IMG/VR virus record: IMGVR_UViG_3300020182_000169
Location: 1-25,459 of that record
Origin: a virus
Length of the DNA stretch: 25,459 nucleotides
Strand: one strand, 5' to 3'
Numbering within the stretch: position 1 is the stretch's first letter; every line of letters starts with the position of its first letter. Shown piece after piece: positions 2 through 25,459 of this stretch. The position numbers and the translations under genes are program-made. The notes below the pieces were generated by a model that was not told the origin of the DNA, searched no databases, and saw only the letters and a program-made list of their open reading frames with translations.

Positions 2-1108
2 ACTAGTAGATGCGGTTCGTGTGACAGTACAGGTTATCTTTTTATGGATGATAATAAGGTGGTTGGGGGACTGAAGTTTCAAGCACCATCAAAGAAGTGG
101 GTATCTGCTAACGGATTTGCTACAGGCAAAGACAAACTGGAATACCTTGAGGGTATAGCTAGACAACGTGGCATGGATGCTGCGGTACTATTCTTACAAC
201 GAGTACGTAGACTTTCTGCAGTCGACACCTATCTATCCAGTTTTGTAGAGGGCATCCGTACTCATGTAAAACCTGATGGCAAGTTGCATGTACGACTGCT
301 ACAGCACCGCACTGCAACAGGTAGACTATCTGGTGCTGACCCTAATATGCAGAACATGCCACGTGGTGGTACGTTTCCTGTTAAGAAAGTATTCAAGTCC
401 CGTTGGGATAACGGTAAGATTATGGAAGCCGACTTTGCCCAGCTAGAGTTTCGGGTTGCTGCATATTTATCACAAGACATGACAGCAATTGACGAAGTAG
501 CTACAGGCTTTGATGTACACAGCTACACTGCACAGGTTATCTCTGATGCAGGTCAGCCTACGTCACGTCAAGATGCCAAGGCCCACACATTTGCTCCTTT
601 GTACGGTGCCAGTGGATTCGGTCGTACAGAGGCAGAGGCTGCGTACTATGCACAGTTCACTAAGAAGTACAGTGGCATTGCCAGATGGCACAAAGAGTTA
701 GCCAGTGAGGCTCTCAGTACAGGTAAGATACGTACACCATCTGGTCGTGAGTTCTCCTTTCCCGGCGTATCACGTAAGGCAAATGGCACTGTTACATTTT
801 TCACACAGATCAAAAACTTTCCTGTGCAATCCTTTGCAACAGCAGACATCGTACCAATATCTCTGATATACATTGATAAGTTATTAGAGGCTAACAAGTT
901 ACATAGCTGTATAGTCAACACAGTACACGATTCAATTGTGATTGACGTACATCCAGCAGAAGAGGAAAAAGTACTGCGAGTAATAACAGCAGCCAATGAC
1001 AAGCTGCTACAAATTGTCAATAAAAAGTGGGGCTTAGACTTCAACGTCCCACTATTACTTGAGGCGAAGATAGGGCCAAATTGGCTTGACACAAAAGATG
1101 TAGCATGA
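2..1108 (+). CDS. polA: DNA polymerase family A (partial, 5' end outside window)
   Basis: This is the C-terminal polymerase domain of the phage replicative DNA polymerase, which extends primed DNA from dNTPs. The frame is open to the window edge, and the first Met (base 44) sits inside the thumb/palm region, so the gene starts upstream. Counting from that Met, motif A is seen with catalytic D130 (DFAQLEFR). Motif B runs from R175 through K179 and F183 to Y187-G188. Motif C is VHDS with catalytic D296, where Pol I and T7 polymerase have VHDE. F183 aligns with E. coli Pol I F762, the wild-type Phe state. A CGSC pair lies just before the first Met and could be a small metal-binding insert. The exonuclease domain, if any, is not in view. 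An ssDNA-binding-like gene follows after 38 bases. Confidence 0.95.
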   Translation, partial: TSRCGSCDSTGYLFMDDNKVVGGLKFQAPSKKWVSANGFATGKDKLEYLEGIARQRGMDAAVLFLQRVRRLSAVDTYLSSFVEGIRTHVKPDGKLHVRLLQHRTATGRLSGADPNMQNMPRGGTFPVKKVFKSRWDNGKIMEADFAQLEFRVAAYLSQDMTAIDEVATGFDVHSYTAQVISDAGQPTSRQDAKAHTFAPLYGASGFGRTEAEAAYYAQFTKKYSGIARWHKELASEALSTGKIRTPSGREFSFPGVSRKANGTVTFFTQIKNFPVQSFATADIVPISLIYIDKLLEANKLHSCIVNTVHDSIVIDVHPAEEEKVLRVITAANDKLLQIVNKKWGLDFNVPLLLEAKIGPNWLDTKDVA

Positions 1109-1146
1109 TATAACTACAGTTCTTGAAAAATCATAGGAGATTATAA

Positions 1147-2040
1147 ATGACACAAGTAGCAACTATTAACACTGATAACTACGCAGCAATGGCAGAAGCA
1201 ATGGGCATGTCCACAGATGCTGGGCCAAAGAAAGCACAGTCAAGTACACTTGCACGGTTGCGTATCAACCACTCACCTATCATGGGTGAAGCACAGGTGA
1301 ACGGCAAGTCTGTAAAGATGGAAGTAGTACCGGGTGGTACATACAAATTGGAAATCCCAGATGGCCCTACATACTACTCTACTAACGTTACTATCCGTCC
1401 GTTCGTACAACGGTTTATGTACAAACGTTTCATCATGGCGTCAGGCGACACACCTAATCGTTACGTCAAGACACTCATGGCTAACGATCTAAACAGTGAC
1501 CTCAAAGACAATGACGGTGGCTTCAACTGTGGCAAACCAGCTGGCTGGATTGAAGACTTCAAAGCATTGCCAGAGAAGACACAAGAGTTGATCCGTCAGA
1601 TCAAACGTGTTCGTGTCATGTTTGGTACAGTAGAGATGCTTGATGTCATGGATGCACAAGGTAACCCTGTAGACTTGGAACCTCAAGCATTCATCTGGGA
1701 AATTGAGAACCGTGATGCATTCAAGACTGCAGGTGGTATCTTCTCTAAGCTGAGTCGTATGCGCCGACTGCCAGTGCAACACAACATCAAGTCTGGCACA
1801 GAGGAACGTGCATTGCCTAACGGTAATGTATTCTACTTGCCTACTATGGAACTTGACATGAGTGAAACACTAGACGTTTCGGATGCAGCACAAGAGACCT
1901 TTGCAAACTTCTTAGCTTGGGTGGAGAACTACAATGAGTACATCAAGGGTGCATGGCAAGAGAAGGCTTACAAGAATGATGACACGGATACGGATACAGT
2001 AGAAGCATTCGTGGACATTGACGAAGAGGACTTCGTATAA
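1147..2040 (+). CDS. Putative single-stranded DNA-binding protein
   Basis: A 297-residue protein placed between DNA polymerase and a recombination-type exonuclease. The C-terminal 20 or so residues are strongly acidic (Asp/Glu/Thr-rich) and end in Asp-Phe-Val. This is the layout of SSB and T7 gp2.5 proteins, whose acidic tail with a terminal aromatic residue contacts replisome partners. The body is rich in beta-prone stretches and basic or aromatic residues, with several Arg/Lys-Tyr/Phe clusters near residues 80-105, as expected of an OB-like fold. I cannot show homology to a named SSB family; the call rests on tail, position and size. The start is supported by AGGAG at 1135-1139. The stop shares a base with the next start (TAATG), suggesting coupling to the exonuclease. 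Confidence 0.6.
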   Translation: MTQVATINTDNYAAMAEAMGMSTDAGPKKAQSSTLARLRINHSPIMGEAQVNGKSVKMEVVPGGTYKLEIPDGPTYYSTNVTIRPFVQRFMYKRFIMASGDTPNRYVKTLMANDLNSDLKDNDGGFNCGKPAGWIEDFKALPEKTQELIRQIKRVRVMFGTVEMLDVMDAQGNPVDLEPQAFIWEIENRDAFKTAGGIFSKLSRMRRLPVQHNIKSGTEERALPNGNVFYLPTMELDMSETLDVSDAAQETFANFLAWVENYNEYIKGAWQEKAYKNDDTDTDTVEAFVDIDEEDFV

Positions 2041-2891
2041 TGAATCATCCCGGCGAACTGGCACTACACCAGTACATGACAGATGCAGTCAACGGCAAGT
2101 CTACCATGAAGGATGAAACAATCCAACAGGTGGCTACAGAGATTGCAGATGCATTGAAACGTCAGTTTGGTAGTGGTAAGTCTCGTGGCGAGTTTAGAAT
2201 CAGGATGTCCAATGTTGGGCGTCCTACTTGCCAACTGTGGTTTGAGAAGAACAGACCAGAGACTGCACTACCTAAACCGACAACCTTCATCATGAACATG
2301 ATGCTAGGTGACATAGTAGAGGCCGTATTCAAAGGACTACTCACAGAAGCAGGGGTAAAATTTGAAGACACCGATCATGTTACTTTGGACGTAGGTGACA
2401 GTGCAGAAACAAAAGTCAACGGCAGCTACGATCTGATTGTCAATGGGGCTGTCGATGATGTGAAGTCAGCATCAGACTGGTCTTACCGTAACAAGTTTGA
2501 ATCCTTCGATGCCCTTGCAAAGGGAGATGGTTTCGGATATGTAGGACAACTTGCAGGTTATGCCAAGGCTTCTGGAAAACGTGCAGGTGGTTGGTGGGTA
2601 GTGAACAAAGCCAATGGTGAGTTCAAGTATGTACCTGCTGACAATCTTGATATGGATGAAGAGTTAGACAAGATCAAGAATACAGTCGAGACAGTAAACA
2701 AAAATGTATTCAAACGTTGCTTCTCCCCTGTACCTGAATACTTTAGGGGAAAGCCGACTGGCAATACAGTACTAAATGACGGATGTAAATTCTGTGATTA
2801 TCGACAGGCATGTTGGCCCACTATGGTAGAGGAACCAGCACGTATGTCAAAAGCAAAAGACCCTAAGATGGTCTCATATATAGAGGAGTGA
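2040..2891 (+). CDS. Cas4/RecB-like PD-(D/E)XK exonuclease with 4Fe-4S cysteines
   Basis: A 283-residue nuclease of the PD-(D/E)XK superfamily. The active site is visible as D131, then D140-V141-K142, with the Q170-L-x-x-Y motif typical of RecB-type nucleases. Four cysteines lie as in Cas4 and AddB: C64 upstream of the core, then C249-x2-C252-x5-C258 at the C-terminus. In those families this set holds a 4Fe-4S cluster that staples the ends of the domain. The likely role is 5' or 3' end resection during phage recombination or degradation of host DNA, working beside the ssDNA-binding-like protein and endonuclease I. It could equally be annotated simply as phage exonuclease; whether the cluster forms is inferred. 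Confidence 0.85.
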   Translation: MNHPGELALHQYMTDAVNGKSTMKDETIQQVATEIADALKRQFGSGKSRGEFRIRMSNVGRPTCQLWFEKNRPETALPKPTTFIMNMMLGDIVEAVFKGLLTEAGVKFEDTDHVTLDVGDSAETKVNGSYDLIVNGAVDDVKSASDWSYRNKFESFDALAKGDGFGYVGQLAGYAKASGKRAGGWWVVNKANGEFKYVPADNLDMDEELDKIKNTVETVNKNVFKRCFSPVPEYFRGKPTGNTVLNDGCKFCDYRQACWPTMVEEPARMSKAKDPKMVSYIEE

Positions 2892-2893
2892 AT

Positions 2894-3103
2894 ATGCTAG
2901 GTGATGATGAAATTAAACAGATGCAGGAAGAGATTGATCTTCTAGAGGCACAGTTGAAGGAACGTAGGCATGACTTACACAAAGCACGTTATGCAAATCT
3001 GCGTAAAGCAGTACAAGCCCGTAAGGATGCAGAAGAAGAAGTCATGGCAGAGCTAAGTAAGCTAGGCGTCAAAAGCTTTAGAGGTATCTGGGGCTTCCCA
3101 TGA
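2894..3103 (+). CDS. Small coiled-coil protein, function unknown
   Basis: A 69-residue protein not recognised as any family. Residues of about 5-55 are rich in Glu, Lys, Gln, Leu and Ala in a heptad-like pattern and should form one long helix or coiled coil; the last 15 residues (GVKSFRGIWGFP) are hydrophobic. An upstream GTG at 2888 is in frame, but GAGGAG at 2883-2888 is spaced correctly for the ATG at 2894, which I chose. The stop overlaps the endonuclease I start as ATGA, so the two are probably translated together. A helper of nuclease or polymerase is possible from position only. Confidence 0.8.
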   Translation: MLGDDEIKQMQEEIDLLEAQLKERRHDLHKARYANLRKAVQARKDAEEEVMAELSKLGVKSFRGIWGFP

Positions 3104-3552
3104 ACGGCAAGCAGTTCCGTGCTGCTATGAAGCATGGGTATAGGAGTGGGCTAGAAATCAAAGTCAAAGATTACTTGAAAGAACACAAAGTAAAGTTCAA
3201 GTATGAAGCCATTAAGATTGAATGGGAAGACTTGATGTACCGCACCTATACCCCTGACTTTGTATTGCCTAATGGGTTAATCATAGAAGTAAAAGGGTTG
3301 TTTACAGCTAGTGATAGACGTAAGCATCTTGCTATTAAAAAGCAACACCCAAGCTTAGACATACGGTTTGTGTTTGAAAGCAGCAAACGTAAGCTAAGTA
3401 AGGGTGCCAAAAGTACATATGCTACATGGTGTGAAAAGAATAAATTTCTATATGCCGATAGGATTGTACCGGAAGATTGGCTAAAAGAAAAAGGTATTGA
3501 CAACCACCCCGACTTGGTGGTATTCCCTAATGAGAAAATAAAAAGGAGTTAG
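3100..3552 (+). CDS. Endonuclease I (T7 gp3-like Holliday junction resolvase)
   Basis: A 150-residue structure-specific endonuclease, the same length as T7 gp3 (149 aa). It cuts branched DNA such as four-way junctions and helps break host DNA for nucleotide recycling. The match to T7 endonuclease I is recognisable along the whole chain: RSGLE with E19, YTPDF with D53, and E63-V-K65-G. These align with the T7 catalytic set E20, D55, E65 and K67. Further shared blocks are DRRKHL, QHP-LDIR-VF and EKNKFLYAD. No active-site residue is missing. Its start overlaps the preceding stop (ATGA). Confidence 0.96.
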   Translation: MNGKQFRAAMKHGYRSGLEIKVKDYLKEHKVKFKYEAIKIEWEDLMYRTYTPDFVLPNGLIIEVKGLFTASDRRKHLAIKKQHPSLDIRFVFESSKRKLSKGAKSTYATWCEKNKFLYADRIVPEDWLKEKGIDNHPDLVVFPNEKIKRS

Positions 3553-3553
3553 C

Positions 3554-3895
3554 ATGGACAACAATGAAAAAACACTTATAGACTTTGACTCAAACGATTT
3601 CGTAATCCGTATTTCACCCCACGTCATGGAAGACAATTCTTGGTCTGGAGATATTGATGTAGGGGTACTAACCACAGATGACAATACACTAAACAGATCC
3701 GACTTCGATCACTTGTCCATGTTAGCTGACATGTTAGTAGCATCCATACCTTTGATGGAGAGGGATGCAGCTTTCCGTAGCAAGCTATTTGACTTGATCA
3801 ATACAGAGATGAATGCTACACCCACAGAAACAACTAGTGTACCAGAAAAGTATGTATCACTAGATGATAACGTGGTTAAAGTAAAGTTTCACTAG
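3554..3895 (+). CDS. Conserved-looking phage protein, function unknown
   Basis: A 113-residue acidic soluble protein. The N-terminal half (residues 8-45) alternates hydrophobic and polar residues like a beta-sheet (FVIRISPHV, GDIDVGVL). The middle (48-85) is helical with a Met/Leu-rich face, and the tail is Thr/Pro-rich, then basic at the end. The start is supported by AAAGGAG at 3542-3548. Proteins of this layout are common among small DNA-metabolism-region genes of marine phages, but I know no function. It lies between endonuclease I and the RNR group. Confidence 0.85.
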   Translation: MDNNEKTLIDFDSNDFVIRISPHVMEDNSWSGDIDVGVLTTDDNTLNRSDFDHLSMLADMLVASIPLMERDAAFRSKLFDLINTEMNATPTETTSVPEKYVSLDDNVVKVKFH

Positions 3896-3918
3896 TAGGA
3901 GAATACGAATGGAAGAAT

Positions 3919-4080
3919 ATGATAGTTAAAGTATTTTTGACATTAGAAGTATTAGAAGATGAATACCCTGTACCTGTAGACGGTATCATCGACACAGAGA
4001 TAGAAGATAAACTACAGGATTTCATCCATGATGTGGATGGCATGGAAATTAAAAATATAAAAATACTGACACAGGAGTGA
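3919..4080 (+). CDS. Short hypothetical protein (53 aa) upstream of RNR
   Basis: A 53-residue reading frame filling the only gap of the left block. It runs from an ATG at 3919 to a TGA that overlaps the RNR ribosome site. The product is acidic, with a beta-like start (MIVKVFLTLEV), a Pro-rich turn (EYPVPVDG), an Asp/Glu-rich helix (residues 27-40) and a closing strand (MEIKNIKIL). That order looks like a folded alpha/beta miniprotein rather than random sequence. The closest ribosome site (AGGAG, 3897-3901) is better spaced for the out-of-frame ATG at 3909, which gives only six codons before a stop. GGAAGA at 3911-3916 could serve this start. No family recognised. Confidence 0.65.
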   Translation: MIVKVFLTLEVLEDEYPVPVDGIIDTEIEDKLQDFIHDVDGMEIKNIKILTQE

Positions 4081-4082
4081 CT

Positions 4083-5996
4083 ATGAATAATTATTTACCT
4101 ACAGACTACCAAGCATTTATCCACACATCTAGGTATGCTCGTTGGCTAGAAGAAGAAAACCGCCGTGAAGGTTGGGGAGAAACAGTAAACCGTTACATGG
4201 ATAATATTGTGACGCCCTTACTGTCAGAGGAAAAAGACTGGAAGGTATACGAAGATATTCGTGATGCTGTTACCTCGTTGCAGATCATGCCTTCTATGAG
4301 AGCTATGATGACAGCTGGTCCAGCCGCAGCACGGGACAATACATGTATGTATAATTGCTCGTACCTTCATGTAGATCATCCTCATGCATTCGATGAAGCA
4401 ATGTTTATCCTATTGTGTGGGACAGGAGTTGGCTTTAGTGTTGAACGGCAGTTCGTAAGTAAGCTTCCAGAGGTTCCACCTTTGTTTGACAGTGAGACAA
4501 CCATTGTCGTAAAGGATAGCAAAGAGGGCTGGGCTAAATCATATCGGCAGCTGCTTGCACTATTGTGGGCTGGTGAGATTCCTAAATGGGATGTCAGTAA
4601 GGTACGTCCAGCAGGTGCACGGTTGAAGACATTCGGTGGACGTGCTAGTGGTCCCGGCCCTCTGGTTGATCTGTTTAACTTCACAGTACAGACATTCAAG
4701 GCAGCACAAGGACGCAAGCTGTCCTCTATTGAGTGCCATGACTTGATGTGCTTTATCGGTCAGATTGTTGTGGTTGGTGGTGTACGCCGCAGTGCTATGA
4801 TTTCATTGAGTAATCTTAGTGATGATCGTATGCGACATGCTAAGTCTGGTCAGTGGTGGAATGAAGCATCGTATCGTGCACTAGCAAATAACAGTGTGTC
4901 ATACACAGAGAAGCCAGACATGGAGACATTCATGCGTGAGTGGCTATCATTAGTAGAGAGTAAATCGGGAGAACGTGGTGTATTCAATCGTCAAGCAAGT
5001 AAAAAGCAAGCTGAAAAGTATGGTCGGCGTGATCCGAACCATGACTTTGGAACAAATCCTTGTTCTGAAATTATCCTTCGATCTGGTCAGGTATGCAACC
5101 TCACAGAAGTTGTTGTCCGTGCTACGGATACCCTTGAAACTCTGGCGGAAAAGGTTCGACTCGCAACCATTCTGGGTACGATACAATCTACCTACACCAA
5201 GTTCCCCTACCTGCGAAAGATGTGGCAACGAAATACAGAAGAAGAACGCCTGTTGGGTGTGTCACTCACAGGGGTAATGGACAACCCACTTATGACACTA
5301 AAGAATAAGGGATTAGATGAAACACTTTCACACCTTCGTAAGGTGGCTGTCGATACTAATGCTGAGTGGGCTGATCGCCTTGGTATCAATGTTAGTACTG
5401 CTATTAGTTGCAATAAACCTTCTGGTACTGTATCACAATTGGTCGATTCAGCCTCCGGTATACACGCCAGACACAACGATTATTACGTCCGAACCGTTAG
5501 AGGAGACAACAACGATCCCCTAACAGAGATGATGAAAGATCAAGGCATCCCTGCCGAACCTTGCGTGTTTAATCCTGAGACTACTACGGTGTTCAGCTTC
5601 CCTGTGCAGTCACCACCGAATGCCGTGACACGTAATGACATGTCAGCAATCGAACAGCTGGAGACATGGCTTGCTTATCAACGTCACTGGTGCGAACACA
5701 AACCATCGGTGACTTGCACAGTTCGTGACACCGAATGGATGGCTGTGGGTGCATTTGTGTATGAACACTTTGACGAGATGTCAGGTGTGTCATTCTTACC
5801 ACACTCAGACCATACTTACCAGCAAGCACCTTATCAGGATTGCAATAAAGAGGAGTATGAGGCATTACTAAGTAAGATGCCTGAGAAGATTGATTGGTCT
5901 AAGCTGAGTAGCTACGAAAAAGAAGATAGCACAAGCTCTAGCCAAGCATTTGCATGTACTGGTGACTCATGCGAAATCGTAGACATCGGAGCATAG
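4083..5996 (+). CDS. nrdJ: Class II (adenosylcobalamin-dependent) ribonucleoside-triphosphate reductase
   Basis: A 637-residue monomeric-type class II RNR that makes dNTPs for phage replication, using vitamin B12 to generate the radical. By alignment with the Lactobacillus leichmannii enzyme, C327 (in NPCSEI) is the thiyl radical cysteine. C338 lies 11 residues later, as C419 does after C408, and probably pairs with C92 (in YNCSY). The C-terminal swing-arm pair is C625-x4-C630, the same spacing as C731/C736. GTGVGF near residues 115-120 and KPSGTVS in the second half fit the barrel core. It is about 100 residues shorter than the Lactobacillus enzyme. An in-frame GTG at 4077 exists, but AGGAG at 4073-4077 points to the ATG at 4083. 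A glutaredoxin lies downstream. Confidence 0.95.
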   Translation: MNNYLPTDYQAFIHTSRYARWLEEENRREGWGETVNRYMDNIVTPLLSEEKDWKVYEDIRDAVTSLQIMPSMRAMMTAGPAAARDNTCMYNCSYLHVDHPHAFDEAMFILLCGTGVGFSVERQFVSKLPEVPPLFDSETTIVVKDSKEGWAKSYRQLLALLWAGEIPKWDVSKVRPAGARLKTFGGRASGPGPLVDLFNFTVQTFKAAQGRKLSSIECHDLMCFIGQIVVVGGVRRSAMISLSNLSDDRMRHAKSGQWWNEASYRALANNSVSYTEKPDMETFMREWLSLVESKSGERGVFNRQASKKQAEKYGRRDPNHDFGTNPCSEIILRSGQVCNLTEVVVRATDTLETLAEKVRLATILGTIQSTYTKFPYLRKMWQRNTEEERLLGVSLTGVMDNPLMTLKNKGLDETLSHLRKVAVDTNAEWADRLGINVSTAISCNKPSGTVSQLVDSASGIHARHNDYYVRTVRGDNNDPLTEMMKDQGIPAEPCVFNPETTTVFSFPVQSPPNAVTRNDMSAIEQLETWLAYQRHWCEHKPSVTCTVRDTEWMAVGAFVYEHFDEMSGVSFLPHSDHTYQQAPYQDCNKEEYEALLSKMPEKIDWSKLSSYEKEDSTSSSQAFACTGDSCEIVDIGA

Positions 5997-8138: not shown

Positions 8139-8170
8139 AAAAAGAGGGGGCTTAATTGCCCCCTTTTCTT
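8137..8170. terminator. Bidirectional rho-independent terminator
   Basis: A hairpin with stem GGGGGC/GCCCCC (8146-8151 with 8158-8163) and a six-base loop, extended by A/T and G-T pairs. It is preceded by an A-run and followed by TTTTCTT, so each strand reads GC stem then U-tract. It fills the 30 bases between two convergent genes and should stop transcription from both sides. Confidence 0.93.
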
Positions 8171-11100
8171 ATTTAGGTTTTAGATCAACTCCTGCTAAAG
8201 CTAGTAGTTGGTTTAGATGCTTTAGATTAGAGAAATCTATGACACCATCTTTGGTTCTCTTTGAGTATAACCTAACCCACTCAGCCTCTGCTATACGCCG
8301 TACATCTTTAGGCAGTCTAATGAACTGGTCTGTTCTTTTTGCAACAGGAGTATCAATCAATGCTCTACCTTCACCCACAGCTTTTCTAATATCTCGAACT
8401 TGCTGTTGGATGTAACCCCGTTCATACATACGCATGTATGCAGTGAGTGTATACTTCTCTTGAAGCTCTTTACTTTTCTGCCACCGCATCTCTGCACGTT
8501 CACCAGTACGCCTACCCTGAGCCACAAGACTAGGCCAGTATGCACTAACCTTTTCATTCTGATAATTCTGTACAGTTTTCATCTTGTGTTTACTGCCAAG
8601 TGTAAAGTTAGGATCAGTGATACCTATCTCTTGTAGATATTTTAAAGTCTCATTTCTTTCTTTAACATTTATACCAGCAAATATACGAGACTTAATGTAC
8701 TGCCTCTTCTCATTAGTGTCTGTAACAGTTTCTCTTTTGGGTAGCAATGCTTCCTCTTCAGGGTCCAATCCACCACGTTGCATCAAAGAACGTTTAGTCT
8801 CATTCAAGAATTGATTGTCCGTAATTATAAAGTCTGTACCTGCTTCCTTACGTTCCGTAGTACGTAAACCCATGTCACGTTCTAATTCTATGACTTGGAA
8901 ATAGGGGTTAAGGAAGCCACTTACATACTGACCAAATACCCTACCGAAAATTTTATCTCTCTTTGCAGCATCAGTTTCGTTTGAAGCACCACTAAGCATA
9001 GAGGTTAACTCTTCTGTGATAACGTTGCTAACACCTGCACGTTGCTGCATACCAAAGAATAACTCCATCCATTCATCTTTAGAATCCCACATATCAAAGG
9101 TTCCATTCTCACGTTCTACGGCAGCACGAACAATCCAGTTCATTTGTGCCATAGGATACGTACCCAGAATGTTAGCATCTAGTTCAGTGAGGGGTATACC
9201 AATATTCTGATAATCTTTACCCCGATTCTCGTCCTTCTGCCATTGATACAGACCTGTGAATATCCCTAATCCAATTATGTTGTTTGCAATTTTTTCAGAT
9301 TCCCGTGCAGTCAACGGACCCTTTAAACTACGGTCAAAAAATTGAGCTTGTAATTTTCTTTTTATTGGGCCAACTGCACCCATAGTTCCTTCAGCAAAAT
9401 ACTCAATGCCATTTGCAATGAATTTAGGAAAGGGGATAGCTACGGATAGTGGGCTTTTACTAATGAAGTTTGCAGACTTTCTGAGTATGTAATTCTCAGG
9501 TGTTGCGGAGTAAGTTACTCGCATTGCTTTTCGTGTGGCATCATCCATTAAAGCAACAAAAGACCTAGCTCCTGCAGGTTTAACTGTAGACGAATCACGT
9601 ACAAAATCCATAAGCATTCCCCCATCTAAGGAATCCTTTAAATCTATTTTGTATTCATTCTTAACCAGCCTCTTTAGCTCAGACCAGAAGGTAGCATTAC
9701 GAATGTTTAGTTCTTGTATCCGGTTTGGGGTATTGAGTACTCCTGAAAAATCTTCCAACATAGAGTACATTTCATCGGCAACCCGTCCCGGCGCACTCGT
9801 TGCTTGCCCTCTGCCCATGTTTAACTGCATTTCATTTAGGGTATTGTACATCATACGTGCATGATCTGGGCTATGCTCAAGCACGTACTCAGAAAAATGT
9901 TTAGCTTCTCTCACATCCTTAAACATTAATTTGAGATTATCCATACCACCTTTGAAAGAACTTTCTGGGCTATAAGGATTTAAAGATTTAAGTGCGGGTA
10001 TAGCACCTTCATTAGAAGCCTTCCACACAGCATTAGAAATAACTGCATTTAAAGATTCCATTGGTGCTCTTACAAAGTTACTTTGCATGTTACGCATAGC
10101 AACAGCTAGGGGTGATACTAGTATACCTTTACGTAAACCTTCGGTACGCAGGAAGTAACGATTATAGTAATCTTTTATTTTATTGTCTGCCTTTTCAGCT
10201 ACCCGACTATCTAAATCTTCTAGTATACCTTTAGGCTTTGCCCTCATAAGATGGCTAAATCTACCCAGCACTTCCCCTGCTTTAGATACAGAGCCATACG
10301 TAGCAAGAACAAACTCCTCAAGTTGCATACCATTTTCTGCTAAAACATCCATCATCTTTTCAGGCTTCACCTTGCCCTCAATAGTAATGCGTAGCATGTC
10401 ATCTATGAGTGTCTTACTTTTTCCGAACTCTTCAGGTGCAATCTTTTTTAGATCAATCAAAGTCCCAACTAAACTGTCAAAGGTTTCTGCATTTAGTATG
10501 GGAGCAGTTAAAGCATTTGAAGGTAGATTTATTACGGCACCTGTTTCTGACTGCATTAAGTCAAGAGTTTTTCTTTCTCCCACAAGTTTGACTGCATCTC
10601 TGTCAATTACACGTTTACCATTTTCCATTTTAGTAATGGTAACATCAAATTTATTTTCAAACTGTGTCAGCAACTCTTCTCTAACAGAGTTATTTTTTGC
10701 TACTTTTTGTTTTACAGCATCACGTAGTTTTTGTTCACGTATACCACCCGCAGTACGAGCCTTCATAACAACAGAAGGGTCTTCAACCCAACCCTTAATT
10801 TTTTTAATGCCCTTTCCAACAGCCTTCACCCCCGGAATAACAGCTAATAAATTTAGAGTTGCCATCGAAAACGCCCAACCAAAGTCTGCCGCATTGCCAT
10901 TTTTAAATGCGTAGACCAATCTGTTATGATCTTCTTCCGTAGGTGCTACAATTTCATCCCATTCACGTTGTGCCCGATTGGACTCCGTAATAAAGTCATT
11001 AAACATTACAGTAGGGTCAATCCAATCTCGCCCTTCCGCAATATTGGCAATGGCATTCAAACTGCCTTTATACCCCATAAATTCCAACAAGTCGGAATTC

Positions 11101-12041
11101 TCCAACATAAAGGATACTCCCTTTTTATGGACGGAGTTTTCTCCGTTTAAGTACCCATATATAGTAGTAAGGTCATTTTCTATATCGGTTTCTGCCGCAT
11201 ATACTGCTTCGTCAAAGAAATCTTGTACAGTTTGTGGTCCATCAAATTGGCTTACGTATTCAGCAATAGAAATCCCAGCCCTTTGAATATCAAACTCTTT
11301 ATACAGTGTTCCATAATCTAACTGTGGGTCAGACTTAGCTTTACTTCTTAGATACTCTAGTGGAGAATCAAACCCAGCCTCTTTCGCAACCTCTTTAAAT
11401 TCCTCAAGTATAGCATCTCTTCTATTTTTAGTGGCAACTGCCTTTTCTCTTGCCTTTTCTCTAAGGTTAGCTAAACTTTCTTTTGAATATAAAGAATCCA
11501 GATTAGTTTGATAGATTTCCTTTGCACGTGCATCTACTTTAATTTCTGTATTTAAAAGTTCCTGCAAGTATGGGCTAGTTGGATCTTCTTTTAACTGTTC
11601 TTTTATACTATCGATGAAGTTGTTTTTAATTGTTGGTACAACTCTTTGTTCTAAGTCTTCAGGGATAAGTGGGCTAAAAACCATATCTGGAAAGTCTTCG
11701 TTTCCATACATGTCTTCATTTGTAATTTCATCTGGATTTTGTATTTCGTTTAGTGTAGATTCATTCGGTGTAAACTCCACACTAGGTAGGAGAGCACCTT
11801 TAACAGATGGTGCAGTACCTTCGGGTTGTTCCGTGGTAGTACTTTGTATTGTGTCTAAAACATTATTCATGTTTGTTGGAGGAAGAATAGCATCCTTGTA
11901 GAGACTACTACCTGTAGCCTGTTGTTCGTCCTCTACTGTAGTAGCTACAGAATCACCATTGACTACTGGCTCTTCAGACTGTTCTTCTTCATCATCCTCT
12001 ATAGAAAAGGATGGCAATACTGCGGAGTCATATACACCCAT
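8169..12041 (-). CDS. Large internal virion (ejection) protein
   Basis: A 1290-residue protein, close in size to T7 gp16 (1318 aa) and last in the structural block, which suggests an internal core protein ejected with the DNA. I see no lysozyme or transglycosylase active site. The first 100 residues are acidic, Thr/Ser-rich and probably disordered, with three short A-x-L-P repeats. Residues of about 120-240 are charged helices. At about 385-415 a hydrophobic stretch is followed by a Lys/Gly-rich amphipathic segment that could touch membrane. The C-terminal 250 residues are basic and helical. The start is supported by AAGGA upstream (TTAAGGAAAAAACTTATG). The function is inferred from size and position. 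Confidence 0.75.
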   Translation of the reverse strand: MGVYDSAVLPSFSIEDDEEEQSEEPVVNGDSVATTVEDEQQATGSSLYKDAILPPTNMNNVLDTIQSTTTEQPEGTAPSVKGALLPSVEFTPNESTLNEIQNPDEITNEDMYGNEDFPDMVFSPLIPEDLEQRVVPTIKNNFIDSIKEQLKEDPTSPYLQELLNTEIKVDARAKEIYQTNLDSLYSKESLANLREKAREKAVATKNRRDAILEEFKEVAKEAGFDSPLEYLRSKAKSDPQLDYGTLYKEFDIQRAGISIAEYVSQFDGPQTVQDFFDEAVYAAETDIENDLTTIYGYLNGENSVHKKGVSFMLENSDLLEFMGYKGSLNAIANIAEGRDWIDPTVMFNDFITESNRAQREWDEIVAPTEEDHNRLVYAFKNGNAADFGWAFSMATLNLLAVIPGVKAVGKGIKKIKGWVEDPSVVMKARTAGGIREQKLRDAVKQKVAKNNSVREELLTQFENKFDVTITKMENGKRVIDRDAVKLVGERKTLDLMQSETGAVINLPSNALTAPILNAETFDSLVGTLIDLKKIAPEEFGKSKTLIDDMLRITIEGKVKPEKMMDVLAENGMQLEEFVLATYGSVSKAGEVLGRFSHLMRAKPKGILEDLDSRVAEKADNKIKDYYNRYFLRTEGLRKGILVSPLAVAMRNMQSNFVRAPMESLNAVISNAVWKASNEGAIPALKSLNPYSPESSFKGGMDNLKLMFKDVREAKHFSEYVLEHSPDHARMMYNTLNEMQLNMGRGQATSAPGRVADEMYSMLEDFSGVLNTPNRIQELNIRNATFWSELKRLVKNEYKIDLKDSLDGGMLMDFVRDSSTVKPAGARSFVALMDDATRKAMRVTYSATPENYILRKSANFISKSPLSVAIPFPKFIANGIEYFAEGTMGAVGPIKRKLQAQFFDRSLKGPLTARESEKIANNIIGLGIFTGLYQWQKDENRGKDYQNIGIPLTELDANILGTYPMAQMNWIVRAAVERENGTFDMWDSKDEWMELFFGMQQRAGVSNVITEELTSMLSGASNETDAAKRDKIFGRVFGQYVSGFLNPYFQVIELERDMGLRTTERKEAGTDFIITDNQFLNETKRSLMQRGGLDPEEEALLPKRETVTDTNEKRQYIKSRIFAGINVKERNETLKYLQEIGITDPNFTLGSKHKMKTVQNYQNEKVSAYWPSLVAQGRRTGERAEMRWQKSKELQEKYTLTAYMRMYERGYIQQQVRDIRKAVGEGRALIDTPVAKRTDQFIRLPKDVRRIAEAEWVRLYSKRTKDGVIDFSNLKHLNQLLALAGVDLKPK

Positions 12042-21147: not shown

Positions 21148-21861
21148 TTATACCTTTGCGATATTTACGTTGTTTACGTTTTTAACAGTTGAACGAACAT
21201 AGTCATACCTGTTAATGTATAGACTACGCATTTGTTTAATACCCATAGCAAGTTTTTGCTCAGACAATTGTGCAGCCTGTAGATCTCCACGAAATGTGTA
21301 GGCATAGTACATTGCACCATCTACAATAATGTGCTTAAACTCTTGTGGAATACTTGGTACATCGTCTTGCAACTCTAGGTCTACAGGATTACGGTAGTAT
21401 TCATACACAAGTTCATATGCATTATTAGGTGTAGGTACAGTAATAAATTCTTGGCTTGGTGTACGTACAATGTAACGAGGAACACCTTGCATATTGTCAG
21501 ATGTATTGTACTCATAGTCTACATACTTATCTAAGTACTCTTGATATGCCAAGTTTTTTAACTTAGTAGTAGCTACGTTTAATGTATCGTTACGTTTAAT
21601 ACGAAAGCTATCCATATTAATTGTTTTTACATCATAGGGGTAGCCGTATCGTGTAGTACCTGCAGTAAGAATATCTTCTTCTTCTACATGGTTCCAAGGC
21701 CACTCAAACTCTTCGTGGTTAATATGCCGAATAGAACTATTAACAGCATCTTTAGCTGTACTGTAGTATCCTGTAGCTGCAGCAAAGTTGGAAGTAGTAA
21801 GCTCTACTTCATTCAATCTACGGTTTACTTCGTTTACTAGACCTAAAAAATTATATGCCAT
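21148..21861 (-). CDS. Tail tubular protein A-like (head-tail adaptor)
   Basis: A 237-residue protein. The N-terminal helices (LVNEVNRRLNE, then a Ser/Ala-rich helix) followed by FEWPWN and a YPYDVK strand segment are characteristic of T7 gp11-type tail tube A proteins, which form the ring under the portal. The C-terminal half has the VDGAMYYAYTFRGDLQAAQLSE helix pair common to the family. Its start overlaps the preceding stop (TAATG). Gene order, adaptor then nozzle then fibre, agrees with the call. Confidence 0.85.
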   Translation of the reverse strand: MAYNFLGLVNEVNRRLNEVELTTSNFAAATGYYSTAKDAVNSSIRHINHEEFEWPWNHVEEEDILTAGTTRYGYPYDVKTINMDSFRIKRNDTLNVATTKLKNLAYQEYLDKYVDYEYNTSDNMQGVPRYIVRTPSQEFITVPTPNNAYELVYEYYRNPVDLELQDDVPSIPQEFKHIIVDGAMYYAYTFRGDLQAAQLSEQKLAMGIKQMRSLYINRYDYVRSTVKNVNNVNIAKV

Positions 21862-22181
21862 TATTTATCCCTCACACGTAGTCGAATGCTTCTTTCTACC
21901 ACTAAAGAATTACTGTCGGTTATTTTACAGTAGAATAAATAGTTAGTATTATTTACACCACCAGCTATATTTGCTGTAGCCACAGTGCTTGTATTAGTTG
22001 CTGCAATAAGTTGAATATTATTTACAGCACTTCCACCGGGTGTTAGTAATGTTTTAGTTCCATCTGAATCTTCGATATACCAAGTAACAGAAACAATTGT
22101 TGCTTCCCCTAGAAAACGAGACCAATCTACACTGTAGTCTAAGGTTTCATCTGGGTCTTTGTTAGGCCATTTTAATGACAT
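21861..22181 (-). CDS. Beta-sandwich virion protein, possible fibre-tail adaptor
   Basis: A 106-residue all-beta protein. It opens with WPNKDPDETLDYSVDWSRFL, a signature I associate with small phage adaptor proteins lying beside tail tube genes, followed by alternating strands of an Ig-like sandwich (VSVTWYIEDSDG, YLFYCKITDS, RSIRLRVRDK). The likely role is attaching the fibrous protein encoded upstream to the virion; this is inferred from position. AAAGGAA precedes the start, and the stop shares a base with the next start. Confidence 0.72.
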   Translation of the reverse strand: MSLKWPNKDPDETLDYSVDWSRFLGEATIVSVTWYIEDSDGTKTLLTPGGSAVNNIQLIAATNTSTVATANIAGGVNNTNYLFYCKITDSNSLVVERSIRLRVRDK

Positions 22182-22192
22182 TATAAATTCCT

Positions 22193-23758
22193 TTAAGCTG
22201 CTACGTAAGCTTTTCTACTGTTGCTCAGAGCTTCTATGTAGACAGTCCTACTTTGCTCTTCCTCTACATATACGGTTCGACTACCAGATTGTGCCTCTAC
22301 GTACACTGTTCTACTCTGACTTTCTTTTACATATGAAGTTTTAGTAGAAAGTAACTCCCGTAAATATACCGTTCTATTTCTGCTGTAATTTTCTTTTATA
22401 GCTTCAAAATCGAATACAACACCACTAGCAATAAGGTTGCTTGTATCTATATTTCCAGACACACCATCAATAGTAACGGCTCTAGAAACTTTAAATCCTA
22501 CCTCACCTACACTAGTTGTAGCTGCAACACTATCTAAATTTACCTGTGCTCCTATCTTAACTACTACTGTATTTACAATAGTGTTAGCAGTAACACCGTT
22601 TAAACTTACATTACTTTCAGAACTAGTAGCTAGTGTTCCTATAAAAGAAGTAATAGCATCTAAAGTTATATTAATAGTAGCTTGAGTAGATACACTTAAA
22701 CTACCTATAGCCCCTGTAGCTTGTGTACCCGTAACTAATACTTCTGTTACAGGAGAACCTGTATCTATCTCTACAATACCTAGTTCTGCGTTAGCACTTA
22801 CCCCAGTTACTGTAGTAGTAGAATCAGAAGAGACATTTACAGAATTTACTGTTGTAATTCCTGCAACACCTGTTAAAGAAGTATTAGAACTTCCCGTAAT
22901 GCTAGGTGCTGTAACTTCTGTATTACCAACTATACCTACAACATTAGTAGAAGAGTTAGCAGAAACACTTACAGTATTAGCTTGTCCTGTGCCAGATACC
23001 CCTGCAATACTTGTAAAAGCCTTACCTGAGATACCTACAGTATTAACTTGTCCTGCAGCACTTACACCAGTAGTTCCTGTAGAAGCTTTACCTGAGATAC
23101 TTGGTGTGCCAACGGCACTTACGCCAGATACACCCGTAACATTAACAACAACACTAACCGCAAAATTTAAATTAAGATTACCAAGCACAAGTGTCTGGCG
23201 ACCAGTATCCCCGGTGTTAGTGGTTAAAGTTGTAGTAGAGTCTCCAACTTCGTAAAAAGTTGCGTTTAACTCTACGCCATCTGTCCCGGTAAACCTTTCG
23301 GTAAAATCTCCGTTTGGAGTTACGTCTATTCCCCCATTAGACCCCCCTGCGTAAACAAGCATGAGAGGCAGAGTACCCGCAGAGGGCGTAGCATTTAGGC
23401 TAATGGCGGTATTGTCCGAAGCCGCATCCGTGCCAGTTACCGATCCAAGTGATGTTATCGTTGCGTCTGGCGTAAGAGAAAAAGCTGCGTAGTTATTATC
23501 AGACCCGGTGAACCAAGACAGACTTGCACCGCCCTCAGTGCCATCCGCAATCTTAGCAATAATGCCAAGAGTGCCTCCAGTCCCCGCACCGGTAAAACTG
23601 TTTATTAACGTCCAGCCAGATGGAGTTGTTGGAATGGTCTCGTTGGTAATGTCATAGTGCATGGCAACCAAAAGGTCGCCAGCCGACACCGTTGCAGGTA
23701 ACGTTATGTCAGCTTGTCTACCGCCAGAACTAGCAGAGTTTAAAGTAAAAGCTACCAT
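22193..23758 (-). CDS. Repeat-rich fibrous virion protein, mosaic
   Basis: A 521-residue protein with three parts. Residues 1-195 form a compact beta domain (AGDLLVAMHYD, PSGWTLI, then a Gly/Thr-rich body) of the type found in phage receptor-binding or decoration proteins. Residues 203-435 are built of 22-residue units with Gly/Ala-Val-Ser turns, probably a beta-helix or stacked shaft. Residues 460-521 are six (R/K)-x-x-Y-(V/I/L) units in alternating 11 and 10 residue steps. The first part is near 50% GC by hand count, whereas a repeat line tested was near 32%, which suggests domain acquisition. It could be a head fibre or accessory tail fibre; I cannot tell which. Confidence 0.8.
   Translation of the reverse strand: MVAFTLNSASSGGRQADITLPATVSAGDLLVAMHYDITNETIPTTPSGWTLINSFTGAGTGGTLGIIAKIADGTEGGASLSWFTGSDNNYAAFSLTPDATITSLGSVTGTDAASDNTAISLNATPSAGTLPLMLVYAGGSNGGIDVTPNGDFTERFTGTDGVELNATFYEVGDSTTTLTTNTGDTGRQTLVLGNLNLNFAVSVVVNVTGVSGVSAVGTPSISGKASTGTTGVSAAGQVNTVGISGKAFTSIAGVSGTGQANTVSVSANSSTNVVGIVGNTEVTAPSITGSSNTSLTGVAGITTVNSVNVSSDSTTTVTGVSANAELGIVEIDTGSPVTEVLVTGTQATGAIGSLSVSTQATINITLDAITSFIGTLATSSESNVSLNGVTANTIVNTVVVKIGAQVNLDSVAATTSVGEVGFKVSRAVTIDGVSGNIDTSNLIASGVVFDFEAIKENYSRNRTVYLRELLSTKTSYVKESQSRTVYVEAQSGSRTVYVEEEQSRTVYIEALSNSRKAYVAA
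22196..22381 (-). repeat. C-terminal 21-residue double repeat
   Basis: The last 62 residues of the fibrous protein hold tyrosines at 465, 476, 486, 497, 507 and 518, with Arg or Lys three residues before each. The steps run 11, 10, 11, 10, 11, giving three 21-residue double units. The core is RTVYVE. At DNA level the units share words such as ACTGTTCTAC and relatives, consistent with tandem duplication followed by drift. Confidence 0.88.
22448..23152 (-). repeat. 22-residue (66-base) coding repeat array
   Basis: In the fibrous protein, Gly-(Val/Ile)-x turns fall at residues 209, 231, 253, 275, 297 and 319, exactly 22 apart. A second phase has turns at 388, 410 and 432, again 22 apart, with two looser units between. 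The unit ends in hydrophobic-Ser/Thr alternation such as VNTVGISGKA. The DNA copies are diverged, although several neighbouring units share 10-15 base words. Confidence 0.85.
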
Positions 23759-23780
23759 ATTACGTTACCTGCATTTTTAA

Positions 23781-24218
23781 TTAGGCAATACGAATAATTG
23801 CATTAGAAGCATCCGCAGTTGGGAAAGTAATAGTAAAGTCACCAGCTGTAGAAGTCTTAGTCCCACCAAAATCAATTACACATATAGCTGCATTAGCTGC
23901 TGTAGAGTTGTAAATAATACAACCGTCTGCAGAAATAGTAGCAGTACTGAATACTTCATCTGCAATATCTACGATTGCTGTTGTCCCTGATACAGAAATA
24001 GTAACACTGTCTAATACAGCACCGCCAGCACTATAGCCAGTACCGGATGCTTCATCTGAGTTACCTGTTACGTCAGAGTAGTTAGTAGTTGCAGCACCAT
24101 ACGTACCCGCAGGTGATGCCTTAATTAGTGCAAGCTTAATACTATCAGTATCTAAATCATGAGTACCACCCAGTAGTTCTGATTTGAAGCTTGTACACAT
24201 TGCTGTTGTGATAGCCAT
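23781..24218 (-). CDS. Small virion protein, possible head decoration
   Basis: A 145-residue, Ala/Thr/Gly/Ser-rich beta protein placed directly after the capsid gene. The SELLGGTHDLDTDSIKLALIK opening, then NYSDVTG and GTGYSAGGAVL, is a pattern shared by many small structural proteins of phages lying near the capsid gene. The second half is four or five strands with no long helix. A head-decoration or head-tail completion role is likely from position only. A longer frame begins at 24257, but AAAGGGA before the ATG at 24218 sets the start there. Confidence 0.78.
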   Translation of the reverse strand: MAITTAMCTSFKSELLGGTHDLDTDSIKLALIKASPAGTYGAATTNYSDVTGNSDEASGTGYSAGGAVLDSVTISVSGTTAIVDIADEVFSTATISADGCIIYNSTAANAAICVIDFGGTKTSTAGDFTITFPTADASNAIIRIA

Positions 24219-24289: not shown

Positions 24290-25369
24290 TTAAGCCAAGT
24301 TGTAACGTGCAGTTACAAGTGCTTCTGGACGCAAGATCTTACGACCATACAGATGCATACCACGAACGATGTCAGCAAAGCTGTCTGGGTCACGGTATGT
24401 TTCAGTTTTGTTGATCTGCTCTGCAGTTGCAACAGCTGAGTCATGACCAGCTACGATTACACCGTAGTTGTCATCCTGTGCAGTTGTACCTGTAGTTGCA
24501 GCACCAGTACCCACTGAAGGCAGGTTGTTGGTTACGTGTACACGGAAACCGTGGAAGTTATTCACCACCAAACCGTTCATCAAGCCTGAACCACCGAAGT
24601 CTGAGTTCAAAAGACGTGAATCTTCGTCACGAAGGATCTCCATCATTTCAGGTGAAATGACAACCCAACGACCTGTAGATGGTACACTCTGAGCATCCAT
24701 GACACGAGCCATGCGAGACAGAACCATAGAAGGTGAAGCATACGCAGTTGGCAAGGCAGTCGCACCCGGCAGACGTGCTGCGATTGGGATAGAGTCACCT
24801 GTTGTACCAGCAGAAGCTGTAGTTGTGATGTTGCCAAAGCTTGCCATGTTCAGCTTGTTAGCTGCCAAAAGTTCATCAGAACCAGCTGCAGTGTTAGCTT
24901 TAGTACCATTTACTGTAGTGTTGACGCCATCAGCATTGTCATGCAAAGTAGACTGAGCATAACCGGACAAGTAGCCAAGAACTTCTTGGTCATACTGGTC
25001 AGCCAAACGATAAGCTGCACGATCACTTGCAAGGCTTTGGAAATTGACGTGGCTATGAGCCTCTTCAATATCGTCTACTTTGAAAGCAAAATAGTTAGCT
25101 TTATCAACAACTAACGAGAAATCGGCATCAGCCAAATCCTGTGGTGCAATTGTAGTACCACGCAGATAAGCTGAGACTGAGATTTCAGGCTCTTTGATGA
25201 TTTTTACTGTATCGCCCATGTTGGCGATTTCTCCGAAATAATCATTGTTAGTGATTGCTTCAGTGATAGATGCTTTGCGGAACGCAAGTTGCACCTGTTT
25301 GGAATAGATAACTGGTGAGAAGTTACCATTTGGGAGGTTGCTATAACCCCCTGCGGAACCGAATGCCAT
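24290..25369 (-). CDS. Major capsid protein
   Basis: A 359-residue coat protein, probably of HK97 fold, forming the icosahedral head. After a Gly/Asn-rich start (AFGSAGGYSNLPNGNFSP) come a long charged helix, a GDTVKI strand, an Ile/Ala/Gln loop (TTIAPQDLAD) and a long helical spine (DQYDQEVLGYLSGYAQ). The central part carries WVVISPEMMEILRDE, and the end has a GRKILRPEALVTARYNLA strand pair. This is the layout of capsid proteins of marine T7-like phages. A longer frame starts at 25387, but AAGGAG and spacing fix the ATG at 25369. Codons are richer in G/C-ending types than in neighbouring genes, as expected for a highly expressed gene. Confidence 0.9.
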   Translation of the reverse strand: MAFGSAGGYSNLPNGNFSPVIYSKQVQLAFRKASITEAITNNDYFGEIANMGDTVKIIKEPEISVSAYLRGTTIAPQDLADADFSLVVDKANYFAFKVDDIEEAHSHVNFQSLASDRAAYRLADQYDQEVLGYLSGYAQSTLHDNADGVNTTVNGTKANTAAGSDELLAANKLNMASFGNITTTASAGTTGDSIPIAARLPGATALPTAYASPSMVLSRMARVMDAQSVPSTGRWVVISPEMMEILRDEDSRLLNSDFGGSGLMNGLVVNNFHGFRVHVTNNLPSVGTGAATTGTTAQDDNYGVIVAGHDSAVATAEQINKTETYRDPDSFADIVRGMHLYGRKILRPEALVTARYNLA

Positions 25370-25459
25370 TGTAATTCTCCTTAGCATTAGTTTTACAGAT
25401 GCAAACTATGTATTACTTAGTGTAGAGGCTAATCGTTTGTGGGTGCATTTATTATCTAA
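25370..25459 (-). other. Leader region of the capsid gene
   Basis: Ninety bases upstream of the capsid gene on the - strand hold the AAGGAG ribosome site (25376-25381 area) and A/T-rich sequence. Two frames are stopped soon after the window edge and a third is open for 17 codons, so the end of an upstream gene, perhaps scaffold, may enter here. I see no convincing promoter. Confidence 0.4.

Follow-up and report, generated by a model that had tools for sequence, protein, structure and literature searches.

Most phage tail fibres are anchored by their N-terminus. Recent domain mosaicism in phage receptor-binding and neck proteins is established (Smug et al. 2023, PMC10684548), and otherwise unrelated proteins are classed as mosaic at high confidence when they share a fragment of at least 70% identity, and at very high confidence when that identity is at least 90% (PMC10684548). 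In the fibre example given there, the N-terminus is kept and the C-terminus is swapped. The T4 protein Hoc, which binds capsid hexamers, has a C-terminal anchor and variable outer beta domains toward the N-terminus (PMC10385173).

Here we describe a fibre-like gene in a window of 25,459 nucleotides, positions 1 to 25,459 of IMG/VR virus record IMGVR_UViG_3300020182_000169; ‘the window’ refers to this whole stretch. As in the published mosaics, a highly similar fragment lies in otherwise unrelated proteins, and at 91% identity to the phage contig L002 it falls in the very high confidence class. Unlike in the published fibre example, it is the C-tail that stays and the N-terminus that is swapped, and the window phage has also lost a separate long fibre gene. 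The likeness to Hoc would lie in a conserved C-terminal anchor, suggested here by co-occurrence with a Gp77-like gene, and in variable beta domains toward the N-terminus; whereas Hoc sits on capsid hexamers, the window gene lies beside a fibre-tail adaptor gene, and we claim no sequence relation between them. Genes of the isolates CRP-603 (gp57), CRP-345 (gp55/gp54) and CRP-207 (gp50) resemble the window gene in having shaft and C-tail beside a Gp77-like gene, but they have a short N-peptide and not the imported domain, and CRP-345 encodes the repeat tail in a small ORF of its own. Mosaicism of phage fibres is already known, and the window is a clear case of this domain swapping. Less usual are probable C-terminal anchoring combined with an N-terminal swap, crossing between distinct phage lineages, and loss of a long fibre gene at the same place.

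The explanation that we favour, and hold as a whole to be likely, is as follows. The gene would encode a virion fibre of an HMO-2011-type podophage. Its lineage-typical C-tail would dock via the product of the adjacent gene, a Gp77-like fibre-tail adaptor, and the N-terminus would be carried outward on a shaft built of beta repeats of about 22 residues. Recombination with a phage of 48-51% GC put a 209-residue all-beta virion domain on this shaft, with the 3′ crossover in the shaft-repeat motif V-T-G-V. The window phage lacks the long fibre gene and short N-peptide of its sisters, and the exposed imported domain would change the cell surface bound. The comparisons below show the chimera, its junctions, the derived state and the phage donor, whereas the docking end, the exposure of the domain and its binding role are inferred. 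Features are listed in Table 1.

Table 1. Features of the fibre locus, in window coordinates
Feature	Coordinates	Strand	Basis
Chimeric fibre-like gene, 521 aa	22193..23758	-	ORF
N-terminal all-beta domain, residues 1-209	23132..23758	-	Common to phages of GC 48-51%
Recombined GC-rich block, codons 22-210	23129..23695	-	Codon identity to L002 and drop in nucleotide identity
First 21 codons, donor amino acids with AT-rich synonymous codons	23696..23758	-	GC3 20% versus 45% in donors
AT-rich shaft repeats, residues 210-315, with 2 x 66-bp tandem repeat	22814..23131	-	Missing from sisters
Shaft repeats, residues 316-440	22439..22813	-	Common to sisters L070/L071 (alignment)
C-tail, residues 441-521 (FDFEAIKENY...RTVYVE repeats), lineage-typical	22193..22438	-	Sister and HMO-2011-type matches
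phrog_644 gene, just upstream of fibre gene	23781..24218	-	PHROG match
Gp77-like fibre-tail adaptor gene, just downstream of fibre gene	21861..22181	-	PF23148
SU10-type adaptor	21148..21861	-	PF24175
Major head protein	24290..25387	-	85% to CRP-1, 71% to HMO-2011

By the identity of its coat protein to those of Roseobacter phage CRP-1 (85%) and HMO-2011 (71%), the phage is a marine podophage of the HMO-2011/roseophage type; gene order is as in CRP-603, and the host is probably a Roseobacter-group bacterium. Elsewhere in the window are a ribonucleotide reductase related to the B12-dependent class (4077-5996) and a 1290-residue ORF with no Pfam match (8169-12041). In many of these phages the phrog_644 gene stands immediately before fibre genes; it is also found in pelagiphages, mycobacteriophages, Gordonia phages and the satellite phage MiniFlayer. 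Neither the 521-residue protein nor its N-domain has a significant Pfam or PHROG match, which places them in no named fibre family, and a tblastn search of 50,697 phage records gave no match for the whole protein, the N-domain or an L017 C-tail.

The initial annotation had read the gene as an older shaft to which an N-terminal domain of higher GC had newly been attached, and expected separate homology searches of the two halves to find different relatives; they did. The N-domain (residues 1-209) has amino acid identities of 91% to L002, 87% to L004 and 85% to L007, all IMG/VR phage contigs, and of 63-77% to L005, L006, L023 and L025 (L023 77%, L025 63%); across L002 and L004-L007 the range is 75-91%. 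Contigs L002-L008 have a GC content of 48-51%, and the closest matches are phage fibre genes inside phage structural clusters. The C-tail (last 81 residues) matches a different set of 26 contigs; its identity is 95-97% in the sister contigs L070 and L071 and 40-45% across HMO-2011-type relatives, and it is absent from donor-type phages. Where covered, these contigs have identities to the window of 62-69% in the coat protein, 61-70% in phrog_644, 51-55% in the Gp77-like protein and 58-63% in the SU10-type adaptor. Among contigs with a complete N-domain, neither the window's C-tail nor a Gp77-like gene was found within the contig sequences, except in the near-identical L001. Close relatives with both halves, which would have spoken against the annotation, were not found; only the near-identical copies L001 and L009 carry both.

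Between the window and L002, identity is 91% over residues 2-209 and 36% in the shaft, and the C-tails are unrelated. The protein of the adjacent upstream gene, phrog_644, is 48-49% identical to those of the donors L002, L004 and L007 and 95% to that of sister L070. For the window and L002, dS is 0.43 over the domain versus about 1.95 over the phrog_644 gene. The shared fragment of 91% thus lies in contexts that differ: the neighbour gene is 48-49% identical, and the donors have neither Gp77-like gene nor C-tail. The phrog_644 tree rejects a grouping of the window with L002/L004/L007 (delta lnL 79, AU p 9e-8). The N-domain tree places the window beside L002 with weak support, and an AU test on that tree alone gives 0.36 for a grouping with L005/L006, which leaves the nearest donor unsettled. 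Comparison of the two sets of relatives, together with sisters that lack the domain, shows that the first 209 residues were recombined recently from a GC-richer phage group onto the lineage's own shaft and C-tail, which supports the annotation's core claim of a newly acquired head.

Both junctions can be placed. At the 3′ junction, nucleotide identity to L002 is 97% in residues 183-208 and 46% in residues 209-234; it drops at residue 210 (23129), the last common codons are GGT/GGC GTA, and the V-T-G-V motif found there recurs in the shaft repeats. The 5′ break lies close to codon 22 (23695). In codons 2-21 the residues are the same as in L002 at 18 of 20 positions, with codons identical at only 6 of 18, versus 136 of 171 from codon 22 (p=9e-5). 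This pattern suggests that codons 1-21 derive from a different copy of the domain, richer in AT and perhaps acquired earlier; alternatively, the AT-rich codons 1-21 (23696-23758) may reflect selection at the gene start. Within the shaft, a tandem repeat at 22970-23100 has two 66-bp copies with 78% matches, consistent with lengthening by duplicated 22-residue repeats.

The sisters, which lack the imported domain and carry a short-N-peptide shaft protein, indicate the direction of change. At the DNA level L070 is 91.7% identical to the window over 24578-23780 and 89.6% over 22607-17192, and L071 is 90.9% identical over 22607-19272. Between its two flanks L070 carries a fibre-like ORF of 1113 residues (813-4154) and, after it, an ORF of 318 residues made up of a short N-peptide (MLFSQNPFSVSSFGESF), a shaft and the same C-tail. 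This 3.3-kb long fibre gene is missing in the window. L071 has the same short N-peptide, and its contig ends before the long-fibre position. Since the sisters and the CRP-603, CRP-345 and CRP-207 isolates all carry short-N-peptide versions, which in the isolates adjoin the Gp77-like gene, the comparison shows the window's fibre layout to be derived and that of the sisters ancestral.

The AlphaFold2 model of the N-domain is all-beta, with 13 strands and no helix (pLDDT 74.6, pTM 0.77); the model of shaft and C-tail is poor (pLDDT 48). Foldseek with the N-domain model matched viral proteins in BFVD down to E 4e-6 with TM about 0.6, including minor tail proteins of mycobacteriophages; in the PDB, sequence searches gave nothing usable and Foldseek nothing significant. 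Using a domain-bounded profile, we found members of a wide phage superfamily as standalone proteins of ~240 residues and as domains at the N-terminus or, in long proteins, at the C-terminus. The last ~190 residues of the L070 long fibre belong to it (profile E 1e-9 among local ORFs, hhalign probability 93%). In L006 a relative of GP4 fiber I (Gp80, PF23140) is encoded at 5144-5530, just before phrog_644 and the N-domain fibre, which ties the N-domain cluster to tail fibres. By analogy the imported domain is probably host-binding, and the receptor-binding tip of the annotation is to be read in the same way.

The gene following the C-tail on its 3′ side is Gp77-like in 26 of 26 contigs. In the window it matches PF23148 at 60.7 bits (curated cut-off 27), the family that includes gp77, the fibre-tail adaptor of podophage GP4; it is a clear member of that family, and docking of the fibre on it is predicted from gene order. 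In the window lineage the RTVYV-repeat part of the tail forms one protein with the shaft; in CRP-345, L082-L086, L088 and L089 it has a small ORF of its own immediately ahead of the Gp77-like gene (inspected directly in CRP-345, L082, L084, L088 and L089). This ORF has ~37-55 residues and lies between the shaft and Gp77-like genes (L098:9258-9371, L082:838-1020, L089:4333-4480). Because the C-tail always adjoins the adaptor gene, the C-terminus is probably the conserved end that anchors the fibre on the virion, leaving the N-domain exposed; an outward-facing N-domain agrees with the place of its superfamily at the free ends of other fibres. The pairing of C-tail and Gp77 could also be plain synteny within one lineage.

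The same chimera might be mounted in the opposite orientation, with the N-domain docked, for example on the phrog_644 product, and shaft and C-tail pointing outward, so that the swap changed the attachment site. N-terminal anchoring is the usual arrangement in phage tail fibres, and in each of the donors examined the N-domain gene comes right after phrog_644, so the domain might dock there. However, the C-tail stays 95-97% conserved between sisters with differing shafts and is always beside the Gp77-like gene, the N-domain superfamily is also found at the C-terminal end of long fibres, that of L070 included, and phrog_644 also precedes unrelated long fibres. We regard this orientation as unlikely. 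With the C-end docked, as we prefer, HMO-2011-type podophages may tentatively be seen as having a reversed-polarity fibre class, in which the RTVYV-repeat tail, fused or separate, fits into an adaptor of the Gp77 type and distantly related phages exchange N-terminal heads at shaft-repeat motifs; we hold this broader scheme possible rather than probable.

An assembly artefact, amino-acid composition alone and host origin were each considered and rejected. Two contigs of the same phage, L001 and L009 from sample 3300020187, end inside the domain (23457-23484), as occurs at sequence common to several genotypes, and a chimera made during metagenome assembly could leave such ends. But L001 spans the 3′ junction and L009 the 5′ junction, and L001 is a separate assembly, since it and the window disagree at about 5 of 7289 positions; moreover, the first 21 codons are not donor-like. 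An assembly chimera is very improbable. The ends of L001 and L009 hint that several genotypes in sample 3300020187 carry the 23457-23484 stretch.

Total GC in 180-base windows is 47.8-52.8% in 23220-23759, 42-46% in 22980-23339 and 32-40% in 22200-22980. At fourfold sites GC3 is 38.5% in residues 1-208, versus 7.9% in the shaft and 20.3% in the other genes of the window. The GC-rich N-terminal part and AT-rich repeat array of the initial annotation are therefore confirmed, more strongly at silent sites; the boundary that it set at about residue 160-190 is slightly too early, the true junction being at residue 209/210 (23132-23129). Total GC falls before this point because the last ~26 codons of the N-domain are AT-rich in the donors also (GC3 15%). 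Among 367 windows of domain size in the other genes the highest fourfold GC3 is 37.5%, and none reaches 38.5%. GC3 as low as that of the shaft is normal for the genes around it (6.4% in the adaptor gene), which makes the domain, not the shaft, the exception. Over codons 22-209 GC3 is 41% in the window versus 41-43% in L002, L004 and L007. The GC step is real and marks the recombination boundary.

It is hardly credible that the gene was inherited whole and that the step arose from amino-acid composition or from a conserved domain evolving slowly: the domain is rich in Gly, Ala and Thr, raising GC1 and GC2, but a step this strong at fourfold sites is more than amino-acid composition, the adjacent gene is several times more diverged from L002 at silent sites than the domain is, and the sister loci without the domain refute it. 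The host-like source proposed in the annotation, a gene of a higher-GC bacterium, would suit a domain GC-richer than the phage, but it can be dismissed with similar firmness, as a search of 84,980 bacterial and archaeal species, with one genome for each, gave no relative and the best matches are fibre genes in structural clusters of GC 48-51% phages; the donor was most likely another phage.

HMO-2011-type phages are reported to dominate in the ocean and to be widely distributed there (PMC9038755); little is known of how they change host recognition. This locus allows before and after to be compared: the sisters lack the domain, the donors carry it, and the breakpoints have been mapped. The docking end can be tested directly on it, and in it a fibre head has crossed between phage lineages whose neighbour genes are only about 48% identical.
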